Origin: a virus
Direction: 5' to 3' (one strand)
Length of the DNA: 33,139 nucleotides
Virus record (IMG/VR): IMGVR_UViG_3300032117_000098
Span: 1-33,139 of that record
Shown: piece by piece, positions 1 through 33,139 of the stretch
How positions within the stretch are numbered: position 1 is the first letter of the stretch
Layout: each line of letters starts with the position of its first letter
Position numbers and translations under genes: made by a program
The notes under the pieces: model-generated
The model's database searches: none
The model's input: only the letters and a program-made list of their open reading frames with translations
Told to the model about the DNA's origin: nothing

Positions 1-140
1 GTTTAGGTATTGGACCCAATGATGTTATTGTCAATACACCTGAGAATATTACTAAAACAGCTAATGCTATTACACAGTTCGAATCTGGTCACTATAAACC
101 TGGTCCAACAGGACCTGTAATGACCATTGGTTCCACTGTT
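1..140. repeat. Left copy of terminal redundancy (closes the circle)
   Basis: Bases 1-140 match 33000-33139 at every position except one: T at 127 against C at 33126. The reading frame of the large virion-protein gene continues exactly across the join, so this is the overlap of a circular or circularly permuted genome of about 32,999 bp. A P22-like terminase and portal fit headful packaging of permuted DNA. The mismatch changes Ile to Thr and may be a population variant or an assembly error. Confidence 0.93.
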
Positions 141-3120: not shown

Positions 3121-3323
3121 CTGTGTGCAGGGATTGGGGCTACTGCCCAACGGTAGCTTTGAACCCCCCAAGGGTTCGACACTTTTAGATTGGTTAGTCA
3201 TAAGTGTTTTCCGTCAATTGATAAGTATGCCATTTATCTTTGTTATCCTATACCAATCCCGGCACAACTTCTGATAGTGCCGGTAGTCCCGAACCCCCAA
3301 TTCGTCCCTGGGGGTTCTTTTTT
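3121..3323 (+). ncRNA. Candidate structured non-coding RNA or regulatory leader
   Basis: Between a promoter-like motif (3112) and an intrinsic terminator lie several stems: GCTAC/GTAGC at 3139-3143 and 3153-3157, competing with TTGGG/CCCAA at 3134-3138 and 3146-3150; GAACCC/GGGTTC at 3161-3166 and 3172-3177; and CCGGCAC/GTGCCGG at 3259-3265 and 3277-3283. GGGTTCG at 3172-3178 is also complementary to CGAACCC at 3290-3296, the 5' arm of the terminator, so an antiterminator pairing is possible. No credible ORF fills the region. It matches no RNA family I recognise. It could be a stand-alone small RNA or an attenuator for the operon starting at 3392. Confidence 0.5.
3291..3323 (+). terminator. 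Strong rho-independent terminator
   Basis: A perfect 9-bp stem GAACCCCCA (3291-3299) / TGGGGGTTC (3309-3317) with a 9-nt loop is followed by six T residues (3318-3323). It separates the virion-gene transcript from the module starting at 3392. Its 5' arm can pair alternatively with 3172-3178. Confidence 0.9.
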
Positions 3324-3363
3324 GGCTAAAAAACCTGTATTTTCGACAATATACTTGTGCTAC

Positions 3364-3391: not shown

Positions 3392-3559
3392 ATGAATATC
3401 AAACTGTCACTGTTCAATCGACATCAACAACATCCTGTCGCTGTGGTTATCCGAACTCGAGGTCCACACTACGCACACCTTAAATGTAGTAAATGCAATA
3501 CGTGGCTCAAGTGGTTATCTCGCACTGAAGCTGAACAGATACGTGAGATGACCCAATGA
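3392..3559 (+). CDS. Mini-protein with CxxC motif, 55 aa
   Basis: The ATG at 3392 follows an AAGGA sequence, and the TGA at 3557-3559 overlaps the next ATG (3556). The protein has a CxxC pair (C32-S-K-C35) within HYAHLKCSKCNTWLKWL. This resembles a short phage and cyanobacterial motif in which His, CxxC and a WLKWL-type tail probably form a half zinc ribbon. With only one CxxC it may bind zinc as a dimer or together with His26/His29. It is translationally coupled to the polymerase-like gene, so a DNA-binding accessory role is plausible but unproven. Confidence 0.65.
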   Translation: MNIKLSLFNRHQQHPVAVVIRTRGPHYAHLKCSKCNTWLKWLSRTEAEQIREMTQ

Positions 3560-4707
3560 CTTATCAACCCAACTTAAATGATCCACGAATACTCACACGC
3601 ATTCAGCGAGCACTGGGGTTTACTATAGGTGTTGTGTCAGAGACACGACCACATCAATGGAGCACGAGATATATCGATCGCCACTTCGGAAGTTCATCAC
3701 GTGACTTATCCCGGTGGTTGCGTAATATCTTATTGATTAATACTAATCGTCACTGGAATCGAGAAGCAGGTATTTGCAAGGAATATGTGAGAAATCCACA
3801 GGGTGTTGATTACTTGCGTGCTGTATTGAAAAATCACTACAGAGAATCATATGAAAAATATCAAGAGGAAATGAAACGGAGTGAGAGTGAACCAAAAGAC
3901 AACTACTCTACTATCTTACCCTATTGTAACGGTTCTCCTGTCAATCAACAGTGGGATTACCAATGTGTTAAAAAATGGGTGCTGCGTGAATATGATTCTG
4001 AGTTTGAATCTGGGTTCAACTATGAAGATAAAAGCAATCGACTATGGCATCCAATACAGAACATATCAAATCAATATCGACAGCAGATTATGAGTGAGCA
4101 GGGCTACCGACACAACTATGACATTGCCGCAGCAGCACCTACACTGATATTACGCGAAGCACAACGAATCAATGCTTATGGTGACTTAGACCTATGGCAG
4201 TGGGCAATCCAGGACTTGTTGGCCAATCGAGACTACCAACGCTACAGACTATCGCTATTAGCTGAATGTGATGTTAGAAAGATAAAAGTAATGATCAATG
4301 CACTATTCTGTGGTGCACGTTTAGGCTGTAATCCACAGTATGCGTTGAGTCAGCTGTTCAATAATGATCGGATTCGAATCAATCGACTGCGTAATGATTC
4401 CTGGCTCGGGCAGTTGATCAGTGAGATTAAAACATGTTGGCGTTCAATTGAAGTCACTATGGAACGACGTGAACATGCCGAAACTGGACGTAAATTACCA
4501 CTGTCAAGTCGTCAGAAGTGGGCCAGATATTTTGAATTAGAAAGACGTGTTCAAAACTCAATATGTCGGTATCTGGAAGAGAATAATAATGCTTACTTCT
4601 TAGAGCATGATGGATTCTGTTCGCGAGATCCAGTGAACTTGACGGAGTTAGATGACTACATTTATCAAGATACTGGCTATTGGATACATGTGGAATCGAA
4701 AAGATAA
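3556..4707 (+). CDS. Candidate palm-domain polymerase (superfamily A / TV-Pol-like), 383 aa
   Basis: Three spaced motifs look like a single-subunit polymerase palm. Motif A is NYDIAAAAPTLIL with D189. Motif B is the helix RKIKVMINALFCGARLG (K242/K244, N248, G253). Motif C is FLEHDGFCS with H351-D352. The HD in motif C is typical of superfamily A DNA polymerases and T7-type RNA polymerases, and the size and order fit the small TV-Pol family described in phages and mobile elements. Residues about 1-130 form an N-terminal region with a Trp/Arg/Asn-rich stretch. It could act in replication, priming or transcription, and it is the only replication-type gene I can find. The region is compositionally distinct: all four CATG sites of the window (near 4433, 4473, 4606 and 4687) are here, and a 26-bp direct repeat flanks 3938-4716. 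The family assignment rests on motifs read by eye. Confidence 0.55.
   Translation: MTYQPNLNDPRILTRIQRALGFTIGVVSETRPHQWSTRYIDRHFGSSSRDLSRWLRNILLINTNRHWNREAGICKEYVRNPQGVDYLRAVLKNHYRESYEKYQEEMKRSESEPKDNYSTILPYCNGSPVNQQWDYQCVKKWVLREYDSEFESGFNYEDKSNRLWHPIQNISNQYRQQIMSEQGYRHNYDIAAAAPTLILREAQRINAYGDLDLWQWAIQDLLANRDYQRYRLSLLAECDVRKIKVMINALFCGARLGCNPQYALSQLFNNDRIRINRLRNDSWLGQLISEIKTCWRSIEVTMERREHAETGRKLPLSSRQKWARYFELERRVQNSICRYLEENNNAYFLEHDGFCSRDPVNLTELDDYIYQDTGYWIHVESKR
3912..3937 (+). repeat. 26-bp direct repeat, copy 1 (inside polymerase-like gene)
   Basis: These 26 bases, encoding part of TILPYCNGS, are identical to 4717-4742. The copies are 805 bp apart and bracket the catalytic part of the polymerase-like gene. 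Joining copy 1 to the sequence after copy 2 keeps an open frame that ends at a TAG near 4770. Confidence 0.9.
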
Positions 4708-8742: not shown

Positions 8743-9525
8743 ATGAAAAAAGAAACAACATCAAACAATCCCTGGACAGAAGATGTCTCTGCAGTCGAAC
8801 CAGACTCTGTTACAGTGGCAAAAAAATCTGTAGCGAAACTTCAACCTCACGTGGAAACAGTTCAATTTGACATTGAAGGTCTGATGACAGACTTTCCCAC
8901 TGCCAAAGAATTAGAACGTTTTGTCTATGATGAAACAGGTATAGTATTGAATCTAAAAGGTCGTGCTAATCGTTTGAAATATCAAGTGGCTATGGATGTG
9001 TTAAATGGTCTGGATATAGATCCCAAGTTCTTAGGTTCAGAAAACCCTTATGTAGATCGCACAGAAATGATTCCACAAGAGGATCTTAAACCTGTGCCTG
9101 CAAGAGATCCTGGATTGCCCAGTATGGATCAATTACAGAACTCATTCTACAGTCCTTTTATTCCGCATCCCAATGATGACTTCCGTGCTCAAGATAAAAA
9201 AGTTGGCTGTATCTTCCGCAAGTATAAGAATGGTATGGTCAGTTATGAAGTGATAGGACCCCTGGACACTGTGCCTGTAGGTGAAAAGATCGACAAGTAT
9301 GGTAGAACACGTCCTGAATATATCAAGTGGATAGATCCACGCACAGGCGAACAGATAATGGTTCGACGTGATGGCACACTGACTCCAATGGGTCGTAATC
9401 TGCGTGGCATAATGCAGAAGTTTCGTGTGAATAACAGTTCAGCTTGGGAAGTTTGGATTGATCGTGAATTCGCAGAAATTGAAGGCGGCAGCTTAAAGAA
9501 TCCTTGGGATGTAGATCCAGAATGA
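8743..9525 (+). CDS. Unknown protein upstream of the packaging genes, 260 aa
   Basis: The start at 8743 follows AAAGGAA. The N-terminal 40 residues are polar. A compact helical segment (FPTAKELERFVYDETGIVLN, then KGRANRLKYQVAMDVLNG) spans about residues 51-90. After it comes a Pro-rich linker (MIPQEDLKPVPARDPGLPSM). The C-terminal half alternates strands and turns around GRTRPEYIKWIDPRTGEQ and MVRRDGTLTPMGRNLRG. I have seen this pattern in uncultured aquatic phages but know no function. It is coupled by ATGA to the superoxide dismutase gene, and its place before the terminase suggests a packaging or head role. Confidence 0.55.
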   Translation: MKKETTSNNPWTEDVSAVEPDSVTVAKKSVAKLQPHVETVQFDIEGLMTDFPTAKELERFVYDETGIVLNLKGRANRLKYQVAMDVLNGLDIDPKFLGSENPYVDRTEMIPQEDLKPVPARDPGLPSMDQLQNSFYSPFIPHPNDDFRAQDKKVGCIFRKYKNGMVSYEVIGPLDTVPVGEKIDKYGRTRPEYIKWIDPRTGEQIMVRRDGTLTPMGRNLRGIMQKFRVNNSSAWEVWIDREFAEIEGGSLKNPWDVDPE

Positions 9526-10055
9526 AGTTTCCCAAATCAACCAATCGAAAATTAGAACAGATTCGTTTACCATATGCATTAGATGCTTTAGAACCTGTGT
9601 TAAGCAAAGAAAATATGATCTATCATTTCCAACACTTGTATGGTGGTTATGTAGATCGTTTTAATAAAAATGAAGGCGATCGTAGCTTCAATGAAGCAGG
9701 TGCTTTCCTACACGCTATCTATTACAGTCAATTTACACCGCCTGCCGCTAATACTACACAGCCCGGACCGGTGTTTAAGGCCTTAATAGAACCTTATCGT
9801 CGATTATCTGTGTTAAAAGAAGAAATGTTAGAAGAAGCTATAAAGATAGAAGGATCAGGTTGGATTTATCTGAGTCGAACAGGTCAAATCAAAACTATAC
9901 ATAATCACGAGATTCGCGATGACATAGTGCTTTTAATTGACTGGTGGGAACACGCTTGGAATCCAGATTATCAATGGCGTAAAAAAGAATATTTTGATCG
10001 CATTTGGTCACTAATGGATTGGGATCATATTGATGCTCGATTGGCTACTTTATGA
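9522..10055 (+). CDS. Fe/Mn-type superoxide dismutase homologue, 177 aa
   Basis: The start at 9522 overlaps the preceding stop (ATGA). The chain follows the FeSOD/MnSOD fold order: LPYALDALEPVLSKENMIYH (residues 16-35), FNEAGAFLHAIYYSQFTPP, EGSGWIYLSRTG, then LLIDWWEHAW and YFDRIWSLMDWDHI. All four metal ligands are present: H35, H64, D140 and H144, equivalent to H26, H73, D156 and H160 of E. coli FeSOD. Tyr43 (Y34) and Trp114 (W122) are also kept. FeSOD His30 is Leu39, and the FeSOD Gln69 position is Gly60, as in Mn enzymes. At 177 residues it is a little shorter than the usual 190-210. The reaction would be dismutation of superoxide to oxygen and peroxide, in the cytoplasm since no signal peptide is seen. 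Altered outer-sphere residues leave activity and metal preference uncertain. Confidence 0.87.
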   Translation: MKFPKSTNRKLEQIRLPYALDALEPVLSKENMIYHFQHLYGGYVDRFNKNEGDRSFNEAGAFLHAIYYSQFTPPAANTTQPGPVFKALIEPYRRLSVLKEEMLEEAIKIEGSGWIYLSRTGQIKTIHNHEIRDDIVLLIDWWEHAWNPDYQWRKKEYFDRIWSLMDWDHIDARLATL

Positions 10056-10360
10056 TAGACCTGGACAGAGAAAATCCGCGTGATCAAATGATTGATACGG
10101 CACGTCAACATCGTGAACTTCAACGTGCCGAAGAAACACGCATAATGCAAAAGGTCAATGCTGCTCACCGTGTTGCTTTTAAACAAAAGTTTCCAGGTCA
10201 AATAGAACATATATTAAGACTAATTGCTGAACGCTTGCAACAGGGCCTACGCAAGGATCAACCAGATCCAATTACAGATGAATCAGTAGATCATCTTAGT
10301 CGGGCTTTATATAACCTATATCAAATACACAATGACCTATCAGATACTACAGGGCAATAA
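10052..10360 (+). CDS. Helical orphan, 102 aa
   Basis: The ATGA overlap with the superoxide dismutase stop supports the start. The whole chain looks alpha-helical and highly charged (RQHRELQRAEETRIMQKVNA, then GQIEHILRLIAERLQQGLRK), and no conserved domain is recognised. It overlaps the following methyltransferase remnant by 29 bases. It lies between the superoxide dismutase and the large terminase; a packaging accessory role is only positional inference. Confidence 0.5.
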   Translation: MIDLDRENPRDQMIDTARQHRELQRAEETRIMQKVNAAHRVAFKQKFPGQIEHILRLIAERLQQGLRKDQPDPITDESVDHLSRALYNLYQIHNDLSDTTGQ

Positions 10361-10586
10361 TATTGATGTGCTCAAAACATTTCCCGATAATCACTTTGAT
10401 TCAATAGTTACAGATCCATTTAATGGTTCTGGATCAACTGGTTGTGCAGCAATAGAATTGGATTATGATTATATAGGCATTGAATTAGATCCTGTCTATG
10501 TAAAAATATCTAATCAAAGAATAGCAGCGTGGTATGAACATACACACACTACTACCTTTAGTCGATTATTTGAATCTGTTGTATAG
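10332..10586 (+). CDS. DNA methyltransferase remnant with internal deletion, 84 aa
   Basis: Residues 1-28 (MTYQILQGNNIDVLKTFPDN, then HFDSIVTD) are the standard start of a beta-class N6-adenine/N4-cytosine methyltransferase leading to the catalytic TDPPY motif. Residues 28-60 (DPFNGSGSTGCAAIELDYDY, then IGIELDPVY) are the SAM-binding DPFxGSGxT motif and following strand, normally 100-200 residues later. The two are fused at a shared Asp-Pro, so the catalytic PPY and the whole target-recognition region are gone. Normal homologues are roughly 220-300 residues. The frame is intact with start and stop, so the product may persist as a SAM-binding stub, or the gene may be decaying. It overlaps the previous gene by 29 bases. 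Assembly collapse at the shared motif is an alternative. Confidence 0.75.
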   Translation: MTYQILQGNNIDVLKTFPDNHFDSIVTDPFNGSGSTGCAAIELDYDYIGIELDPVYVKISNQRIAAWYEHTHTTTFSRLFESVV

Positions 10587-29155: not shown

Positions 29156-30160
29156 ATGAATAGAGTGCATCAGATTAAGCAATGTTTTCCATTGGAATTA
29201 GCAAATAGAATACATAAATTGCTTAAAGACACAGAATGGAAATATGGATGGCGTAGTAATCCCAGTATGGGTTATGGTCATTGGAATAAAGATTTTGGAC
29301 GAGGTGGGCCCGAAAATGGTATTGATATTACAGGCAATTTGCCGTTGATATTAAAAGAGGCCTGGGATTATTTAGAAACAGTTTATGTTCCAAATTCCAT
29401 TTTAACAAGATGTTATACCAATGCTCATACGTTTGGTATCGAAGGATATCCGCACGTGGATTCAGAAAGAAATCAAGATAGAACTATTGTAATTTATATG
29501 AATCAAGATTGGCGACGTGAATGGGGAGGAGAGACAATTGTATATGAAGGCAATGAAATTCACTATGCAGAATTGCCCAAGTTTAACAAAGGTCTTATAT
29601 TTTATGGTAATCAATTTCACTGTGCTAAAAGTGTCAGTAGGATTTGTCCAGATTTACGTATGACATTAATGTTTAAGTTTGCTCCAATAAATTCAGATCC
29701 ACAAAGAGATCAATTACAGAGATTCTTAACTAAAGTTGGTGCAAATAAGATTCCGCACAGTGGAAGACAGTTAATGGGTCATTTGTTAAACACATATGAC
29801 ATATTAAAAACTAAAGGCTGTTCGGATGCAGTTTGTCGAGCAGGTGCAATGCATAGTATTTTTGGAACTAATATATTCAAAACTAAAACTTTAGATATTG
29901 ACAGCAATAAAATTACTATTGAAAATCTTGTAGGCATTGAAGCAGCAGAATTAGTAGAATTATTTGCACGTATTAATAGACCTTATACATTAGAAAAAAT
30001 GAAAACAACATTGGATCTAACAACGGGAGGAACTGTGGAAGTCAGTCAAAAGATATTGGAACAGTTATGTCAGATAGAAGCTGCTAATCTAAGAGATCAA
30101 GCAGCTTTGGCACAATGGCCAGAATTGTCTGCATATTGGAACAAATTAAAATTAGATTAA
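29156..30160 (+). CDS. 2OG-Fe(II) oxygenase fused to an HD-like (DUF6817-type) domain, 334 aa
   Basis: Residues about 1-178 are a 2-oxoglutarate/Fe(II) dioxygenase domain: the iron triad is H100-x-D102 (YPHVDSERNQDRT) and H155 (FYGNQFHCAKSVSR), with R161 or R168 as the 2OG-binding Arg. GWGGET-like REWGGETIVYEG completes the fold. Residues about 195-280 form a second domain with HSGRQLMGHLLNTYDIL, AVCRAGAMHSIFGT and a helix with AELVELFARINR. This is the pattern of DUF6817, an HD-hydrolase-like family with several His (H201, H209, H233). Phage 2OG oxygenases hydroxylate proteins or nucleotides; the target here is unknown. An AAAAAGGA site precedes the ATG. A two-domain fusion of this kind also occurs separately in cyanophages. 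Confidence 0.82.
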   Translation: MNRVHQIKQCFPLELANRIHKLLKDTEWKYGWRSNPSMGYGHWNKDFGRGGPENGIDITGNLPLILKEAWDYLETVYVPNSILTRCYTNAHTFGIEGYPHVDSERNQDRTIVIYMNQDWRREWGGETIVYEGNEIHYAELPKFNKGLIFYGNQFHCAKSVSRICPDLRMTLMFKFAPINSDPQRDQLQRFLTKVGANKIPHSGRQLMGHLLNTYDILKTKGCSDAVCRAGAMHSIFGTNIFKTKTLDIDSNKITIENLVGIEAAELVELFARINRPYTLEKMKTTLDLTTGGTVEVSQKILEQLCQIEAANLRDQAALAQWPELSAYWNKLKLD

Positions 30161-31153: not shown

Positions 31154-33139
31154 ATGGCTGATGAATTAGATTTTATGCCTGGATCAAGCGAATATCAGGT
31201 GCCCACTCCGGATTTTAGTCAAATATTATCCAGTGCTCAAAGTTATTTGGCTAATAATTTTAGTTTAGGTAATCGTGCAAGTTCTGCTACACAACCAATT
31301 AGTATTCCTGCTGCTACGCAAAATGCCTATCAATATCAACCAGAAACTGCTGCTCCTATCAATTTAGCCAATAGCACACAGTTGATGAATCAACAGCCTA
31401 ATCCTGCTGTTTATACAGCACCTCCGGTCAATTATGCACCTGTAAATCAACCATTTGGTCCAACTACCAGTAATGTGGTAAATCCACAGGCCTTAACTCC
31501 AGCTTGGACCAATCCTGTGAATCCATTTGGTCCAACTACCAGTAATGTGGTAAATCCTGCTGCGGTGAATCCTGCTGCGGTGAATCCTGCTGCGGTGAAT
31601 CCTGCTGCGGTGAATCCTACTCAGGTAGGAACCGCTGCACCTGTTCCTGTTCCTGCTGCACCTGCTGCGATTCCTCCAGCTGTGCCAATAACGCCTACTG
31701 CTACAATTCCTACTGTTACAGCATTTACACCTCCAACAGTAAATCAACCAATTGCTGCAACACCTTTACCGACTAATGTTACTACAACACCAGATGGAAC
31801 ACCATTAAACGCTCCAGTAAATGTTAATAGTCCATCTGCACAACAGCAAAGATTGATAGAAGCCAGTAATGAACGTGATGCCAATCGTCGTCACGAATTG
31901 ATGACTAAAATTATTTCAGATCCTAATACTTCGAAAGAAAATAAAGATTTGGCTATGAAGTTGGCAGCCGAAGCTAATGAACGTGATTTGCAAGCACAGA
32001 AAGCCAGTCAAGAATTAAAAAAGGCTACACCTAATGATTTAGTTCGTGCAATGAGATCTAATTCCGATGAAGGTAGCTATATTAAATTGGCCTTATTCCA
32101 CGCATTGGGATGGAATCAATTGGCACAACAGGAACAGATCAAATTAGGACATAATCTTGTTCGCCAAGGTGCAGAAGATCGTCAAGGAAACGGCTATACA
32201 GTAGAACGTAATCCAGTTACAGGTGATATTTCTCGTGTTTGGGATCAAAAGGGTGTAGAACAAGGACCAGATAAAATTGCTGAACTTATGGCCACTGGTA
32301 TGAAACCTGGAACAAAAACTACCAGTCAAGAAGGCACTATTCTTACATCACCTTCAACCGGTCGTCAATTCATTCTACAAAGATCTAATGTTCCTAACGA
32401 ACCACCTAAGTTCGTTCCAGTTGGTGGTGGTGCTCCTATCTCTGCTGCCGAACAAGCTGAACTTGGTAAGTTAGGTGCTATGCAAGAACAGGAAAAACGT
32501 AATCAAGCTCTTGCTGATACAACATTCAAACAAGAATATGAAAGATTGTCACAACAAAATCAAAAAGACAGTCAAATTCCTGGCAAACCTTTAATGAGCA
32601 CGGCTGAAATGATTCAACGTGCAGAACAGGCCAGACAGGCTATTCTAAATCTGCATCCTGTTAGTCACGCTGCTGGTGTTGCAGAAAGTCGTGCCAATCC
32701 TAATGAAGTATTGGCAGCAAGACAAGCTGGTCAAAGTTTAACTGAATATTATAACAATCCAGGTGCTATTTTTGGTGCAGATGGTCGAATTCGTAGATTT
32801 GCTACTCCTGAAGAAGGACGTCGTGCATTGGAAAATGATCTGTCATTAAAAATAGGTGGTCAAAGTGCTGCATTTGCTAACAAATGGGGATCAGGAACTC
32901 CAGTGACTCCTTATCGTTTAGCAGAAACTTGGGCTCCTGCAAATGCAGTTGGTAATACTCCAGAAGGCACTAAAAATTATGGAGAATTTATTGCTAAAAG
33001 TTTAGGTATTGGACCCAATGATGTTATTGTCAATACACCTGAGAATATTACTAAAACAGCTAATGCTATTACACAGTTCGAATCTGGTCACTATAAACCT
33101 GGTCCAACAGGACCTGTAATGACCACTGGTTCCACTGTT
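31154..33139 (+). CDS. Large internal virion (ejection-type) protein, 5' part
   Basis: The ATG at 31154 lies 3 bases after the S74-type gene and opens a frame with no stop to the window end, continuing at base 1-971 across the circular junction (938 residues in all). Domain order: a short N-terminus; a Pro/Ala/Asn/Thr-rich linker at about 60-220 with (VNPAA)4 and a VNPFGPTTSNVVNP duplication; charged helices (NERDANRRHELMTKIISDPN); and a region with NNPGAIFGADGRIRRFATPE and WAPANAVGNTPEGTKNYGEF. The last resembles a module common in phage virion-associated lysozyme-like and internal proteins. The remaining helical part is in the left end of the window. It may form the inner core or transit the envelope. 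Enzymatic activity is not proven. Confidence 0.75.
   Translation, partial: MADELDFMPGSSEYQVPTPDFSQILSSAQSYLANNFSLGNRASSATQPISIPAATQNAYQYQPETAAPINLANSTQLMNQQPNPAVYTAPPVNYAPVNQPFGPTTSNVVNPQALTPAWTNPVNPFGPTTSNVVNPAAVNPAAVNPAAVNPAAVNPTQVGTAAPVPVPAAPAAIPPAVPITPTATIPTVTAFTPPTVNQPIAATPLPTNVTTTPDGTPLNAPVNVNSPSAQQQRLIEASNERDANRRHELMTKIISDPNTSKENKDLAMKLAAEANERDLQAQKASQELKKATPNDLVRAMRSNSDEGSYIKLALFHALGWNQLAQQEQIKLGHNLVRQGAEDRQGNGYTVERNPVTGDISRVWDQKGVEQGPDKIAELMATGMKPGTKTTSQEGTILTSPSTGRQFILQRSNVPNEPPKFVPVGGGAPISAAEQAELGKLGAMQEQEKRNQALADTTFKQEYERLSQQNQKDSQIPGKPLMSTAEMIQRAEQARQAILNLHPVSHAAGVAESRANPNEVLAARQAGQSLTEYYNNPGAIFGADGRIRRFATPEEGRRALENDLSLKIGGQSAAFANKWGSGTPVTPYRLAETWAPANAVGNTPEGTKNYGEFIAKSLGIGPNDVIVNTPENITKTANAITQFESGHYKPGPTGPVMTTGSTV
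31553..31612 (+). repeat. 15-bp tandem repeat, 4 units (VNPAA)
   Basis: Four perfect units AATCCTGCTGCGGTG occur in frame in the linker of the large virion protein. Confidence 0.93.
33000..33139. repeat. Right copy of terminal redundancy
   Basis: This is identical to bases 1-140 except C at 33126 in place of T at 127. The first 126 bases of the overlap are perfect and 13 more match after the mismatch. Confidence 0.93.

Follow-up and report, generated by a model that had tools for sequence, protein, structure and literature searches.

A compact TV-Pol-like polymerase with a predicted family A fold in small tailed phages

The TV-Pol family comprises polymerases of transposons and viruses, the replication proteins of Sputnik-type virophages included (Iyer, Abhiman and Aravind 2008, PMC2579912). 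The part of that description drawn on here lists a palm of the RRM type in which two metal-binding aspartates are conserved. A thumb made of two antiparallel helices precedes this palm, as does a beta-hairpin whose Arg is absolutely conserved, and the fingers carry an RxxxK motif together with a conserved Asp. The same part places these proteins fused or adjacent to a D5-like helicase or in a resolvase/integrase/transposase neighbourhood, mentions that stand-alone TV-Pols exist too, and reports a TV-Pol element in Microcystis phage Ma-LMM01 (PMC2579912). Family A catalytic cores are also found in the CCPol-MP proteins, the PolA-SSB primases of SCCmec elements, in which CCPol primes only with an ssDNA-binding partner (PMC7581432, PMC10061031). 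Pol I excludes ribonucleotides by means of E710 and F762, and CCPol retains both residues and prefers dNTPs (PMC7581432).

We analysed the DNA of an aquatic phage, 33,139 nucleotides long (IMG/VR record IMGVR_UViG_3300032117_000098, hereafter the window). A 140-nt direct repeat at its ends, and a gene that spans the junction of these ends, suggest that it is an entire genome, about 33.0 kb in size. Between its tail-region and packaging genes lies an ORF that the original prediction had taken for a palm-type polymerase. This 383-aa ORF is real, and the three strings quoted for it, NYDIAAAAPTL (D189), RKIKVMINALFCGARLG (K244 and G253) and EHDG (350-353), are present as claimed. The features discussed below are as follows.

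1..140 and 33000-33139, no strand: direct terminal repeat, 140 nt with one mismatch, from comparison of the window ends
3392..3559, plus strand: 55-aa CxxC zinc-ribbon-like ORF, a candidate partner; 4-nt overlap with the polymerase start, relatives at polymerase loci
3556..4707, plus strand: TV-Pol-like polymerase, 383 aa; 52-member alignment, AlphaFold2 (AF2) model, fold matches and TV-Pol-type profile match
3556..3831, plus strand: predicted winged-helix-like N-terminal domain, residues 1-92; AF2 pLDDT 93.4, weak winged-helix matches (Z up to 4.5)
4039..4059, plus strand: hairpin Arg R162 to Q168, a PolA-like 'R..(P)LQN' element; both residues 52/52
4120..4122, plus strand: D189, predicted catalytic Asp of motif A; 52/52
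4285..4314, plus strand: motif B, fingers helix, K244 to G253; both residues 52/52, aligned with motif B of T7 DNA polymerase
4603..4614, plus strand: motif C, E350-H351-D352-G353; 52/52, predicted strand-turn-strand at 347-356

Single-sequence searches with the 383-aa protein found no relative in Pfam, phages, plasmids, viral contigs or genome contigs, and its matches in PHROGs and PDB sequences were at chance level. The Pfam DNA_pol_A model (PF00476) did not match the protein and did match control genomes. The first three homologs came from whole-record searches restricted to records with a shared terminase; a profile built from them retrieved 64 viral loci, and a larger profile retrieved 96, of which 80 were kept. 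The family was found on at least 80 environmental phage contigs, mainly from tailed phages of 20-40 kb, and on four bacterial contigs (a Legionella MAG, Caballeronia udeis, Janthinobacterium and a bacterial MAG). The Pfam and PHROGs families listed for its members include no polymerase family, and no single one is common to more than five members; by these profile searches, neither database gives the family a polymerase annotation. A DNA pattern search with motif A matched six contigs, none of which has a relative, and matches to Melibiase, hexosaminidase and tail-chaperonin were rejected as weak and scattered.

In an alignment of 52 relatives, which are 27-46% identical to the window protein, 17 positions are invariant, including R162, Q168, Y188, D189, R229, K244 and G253, and further W295, Y325, E329, F348 and E350-G353. 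Judged from this alignment, the conservation of the polymerase motifs exceeds chance, and motifs A, B and C had been correctly assigned. The invariant R162 and Q168, which the original prediction had not listed, precede motif A and are placed like an element of Pol I, which reads 'RLSS..PNLQN' in that enzyme. By eye, motif B resembles that of protein-primed polymerases of family B; an assignment to family A is preferred on account of the fold matches, the HDG motif and the R..Q ahead of motif A.

The AF2 model of the protein (mean pLDDT 91.4, pTM 0.86) had T7 DNA polymerase as its top Foldseek match in the PDB (E 2.2e-4), with Pol I also among the best. VIA-align superposed model residues 147-383 on residues 413-704 of T7 DNA polymerase (Z 12.5, 219 residues, rmsd 3.9), and about the same region on the polymerase domains of Pol theta, T7, Taq and Klenow with Z up to 12.6, indicating that the predicted fold matches family A palms. 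Ahead of the palm, the model contains helices at 95-109 and 128-152, joined by a loop of low confidence, and short strands around R162. The N-terminal domain is modelled as winged-helix-like and the remainder as palm and fingers with a putative thumb, which agrees with the claimed lack of an exonuclease domain; the weak structural matches leave it tentative that the N-terminal domain occupies the exonuclease position. Two virophage proteins are among the matches in the viral models of BFVD, the helicase/primase/polymerase of Qinghai Lake virophage (E 8.9e-6) and the replication protein of Zamilon (E 5.1e-5). The window protein thus resembles T7 DNA polymerase and bacterial Pol I in the predicted fold of about residues 147-383, and its motif B Lys aligns with that of T7 DNA polymerase. 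In contrast to these enzymes, it has no exonuclease and no match to PF00476, and its motif C contains HDG instead of HDE.

The winged-helix-like N-terminus could alternatively be a promoter-binding domain, in which case the protein would be a small single-subunit RNA polymerase for phage genes, similar to T7 RNA polymerase. The VIA-align matches to mitochondrial RNA polymerase (Z about 11) and the replacement of the ribose-gate residues (see below) are consistent with this. However, the fold matches rank DNA polymerases slightly higher, the T7 RNA polymerase profile shows no sequence-profile relationship to the family (hhalign probability 0.1), and by sequence its relatives are proteins of the TV-Pol type from replicating elements, all of which make such a role improbable.

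These TV-Pol-type proteins were represented by a reference set composed of the transposase-adjoining Ma-LMM01 protein, MAP_030, and its plasmid and genome relatives. MAP_030 adjoins two transposase genes and was the best of 58 large Ma-LMM01 ORFs against the family profile, with a weak match when compared alone (P 0.0013); it is presumably the TV-Pol member that the passage on this phage in PMC2579912 refers to. Two of its plasmid relatives have resolvase-type recombinase genes nearby and one adjoins RepA. Comparison of the family profile with the plasmid/phage TV-Pol-type profile gave a probability of 99.6% (E 8.7e-24) and a score of 175; 40 column-shuffled controls scored no higher than 23.4, and the reversed profile scored 16.3. 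Furthermore, a TV-Pol-type protein of a Polaromonas plasmid, used as a plain query against 398 genomes, retrieved the Caballeronia family member (E 2.3e-8), and in Desulfovibrio phage 7757 the family profile found a protein of 767 aa (E 3.6e-13 within that record; 97%, E 2.8e-11 by hhalign). TV-Pol, proposed originally as the closest known idea, is therefore upheld by the HMM-HMM comparison, and the assignment to palm-type polymerases of the family A/TV-Pol group was reached independently by sequence profiles and structure prediction.

Nine residues, R162, Q168, D189, K244, G253, E329, H351, D352 and G353, are invariant across both groups. R162 aligns with the invariant Arg of GR(L/V)Y in the TV-Pol-type proteins and corresponds to the hairpin Arg, and D189 and D352 (both 52/52) supply the two aspartates of a palm whose predicted fold is that of family A. 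The RxxxK motif of the fingers is absent at its literal spacing: K244 is present in 52/52, but position 240 is E, P, V, T or other residues, and the invariant R229 lies 15 residues upstream of K244. The five TV-Pol-type references used also lack an Arg at this spacing, and the literal motif thus does not separate them from the family. Because the spacing differs, we call the protein TV-Pol-like rather than a strict TV-Pol member. Like TV-Pols, it has a palm with two Asp, an upstream hairpin Arg, a fingers Lys and no exonuclease, and virophage replication proteins are among its top viral fold matches. Unlike them, it is short and stand-alone with its own N-terminal domain, and its family has no D5 helicase, fused or elsewhere, in the genomes searched. 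By alignment and model, the 383-aa protein is a stand-alone TV-Pol-like variant whose fold is itself already known, and it is probably an active, compact polymerase of a TV-Pol-like branch within the family A (Pol I/T7) superfamily. The divPolA2 of barbaviruses and other phages (PMC11348598) is likewise a divergent PolA that lacks an exonuclease, has an N-terminal domain of its own, lies in variable phage neighbourhoods and shows the R..QN..D pattern; it differs in that its profile match to the window family is not significant (P 0.065) and that it occurs in larger phages, of which barbaviruses have a regular PolB as well.

The polymerase had also been called the only replication gene. By the tests run, this holds for the window, which has no DNA_pol_A, DnaB_C or D5_N match and whose sole convincing Walker A is in the terminase. 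With the window included, DNA_pol_A was found in none of 31 records (control genomes matched), DnaB_C in none of 26, and D5_N, representing the D5-helicase neighbourhood, in none of 26; some of the records searched are fragments, in which absence carries less weight. Searches for tRNAs and Rfam families gave no match, and a search upstream of the polymerase gene for iterons or a clear origin gave only weak repeats. As no second polymerase was found in this genome and DNA polymerases are the best PDB matches, the protein might itself replicate the phage DNA, as a polymerase that extends primers until the genome is copied in full. We regard this as distinctly unlikely, since neither an exonuclease nor a helicase accompanies it, the equivalents of E710 and F762 are lost, and the gene is absent from most terminase relatives.

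Indeed, a family-profile search detected the polymerase gene in only 3 of 22 terminase relatives, and ten records of 27.9-36.9 kb have neither this gene nor DNA_pol_A. A check for replacement genes in relatives lacking the polymerase turned up GNAT-like and HNH-like genes and no recognisable polymerase; one such relative (L015) has both the GNAT-like and the HNH-like neighbour in the absence of the polymerase. Because most terminase relatives, several of them 33-37 kb, lack the gene, the polymerase is an accessory or swappable module that is not essential to the lineage. The gene therefore does not represent the replication strategy of the whole phage lineage, and, on the choice between replication and transcription raised originally, the altered ribose-gate residues would allow an RNA-making enzyme. 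The patchy distribution and the variable neighbours would also fit a polymerase that travels as cargo and serves as an accessory in repair, in end filling or for a mobile element. Integrase linkage points in the same direction, with tyrosine recombinase genes near two bacterial copies, in Caballeronia (L163 9977-11092) and Janthinobacterium (L164 9941-11332), around which no phage structural genes were seen. Against a cargo role, the catalytic set is invariant over very divergent phages and several phages keep the gene at a similar location in the interval between tail-region and packaging genes, and we give it little credence. Tail-fibre-like genes lie upstream of the polymerase in many relatives.

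Placed by spacing (D+5 and motif B K+4), A194 (49/52) and N248 (42/52) stand at the equivalents of Pol I E710 and F762. With both ribose-excluding residues of Pol I replaced, use of NTPs is probably possible, and the protein may be an RNA-making enzyme. We lean towards a TV-Pol-like polymerase that primes strands for the host replisome and is probably able to take NTPs, a proposal built for priming and NTP use on these two alignment columns and the analogy with CCPol. The N-terminal domain and the zinc-ribbon-like partner would keep the template DNA in position close to an origin or to an exposed stretch of single strand; in the palm, D189 and D352 would act with two metals and K244 and R229 would contact the nucleotide. 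The palm would then begin a strand without a primer, probably being able to take NTPs, and the host replisome would elongate it. Such extension would account for a phage without its own helicase or replicative polymerase. Set beside the window family by description, CCPol-MP shares a family A catalytic core next to a small protein. It differs in that its partner has an OB fold instead of a zinc-ribbon-like candidate, and in that CCPol keeps both ribose-discriminating residues, neither of which is kept in the window family.

The need of CCPol for an ssDNA-binding partner is paralleled by the ribbon ORF next to the polymerase, whose 55-aa product may bind ssDNA. Relatives of this ORF occur at 34 of 90 polymerase loci, always on the polymerase strand and immediately ahead or slightly downstream of the polymerase, and one of them gave a match to the GRF-like zinc ribbon of Pfam (E 4.6e-4) that falls short of the curated cut-off. 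In two terminase relatives lacking the polymerase, a ribbon-related segment opens a 184-residue frame (5782-6333 in L007), showing that the ribbon also occurs outside polymerase loci. This sub-cut-off match and the adjacency of the ribbon ORF at just 27 of 76 loci with both flanks present speak against the priming model, as does the lack of a phage helicase that would open the template. A more specific form, in which the family A palm and the separate zinc ribbon make up a split, NTP-using RNA primase of small tailed phages unrelated to DnaG/AEP primases, is conceivable but doubtful; if true, a phage of 33 kb with no helicase of its own could begin replication on the host replisome. The unannotated TV-Pol-like branch recurs in aquatic tailed phages, some without another recognised replication gene, and makes testable how replication starts in such phages and whether a family A palm has become a primase that makes RNA. 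At 3290-3325, upstream of the 55-aa ORF, a GC-rich inverted repeat precedes a T-run and looks terminator-like by eye, with a loop exceeding the length allowed by the scan.

Elsewhere in the window, this small phage genome encodes a Dps/ferritin-like protein (2106-2537) and an iron/manganese superoxide dismutase-like protein (9504-10055) with matches to both Pfam domains. An 84-aa DNA methylase piece (10332-10586) matches the N6_N4_Mtase model at its C-terminal end alone and looks truncated, and one protein (29156-30160) combines 2OG-Fe(II) oxygenase and DUF6817 matches.
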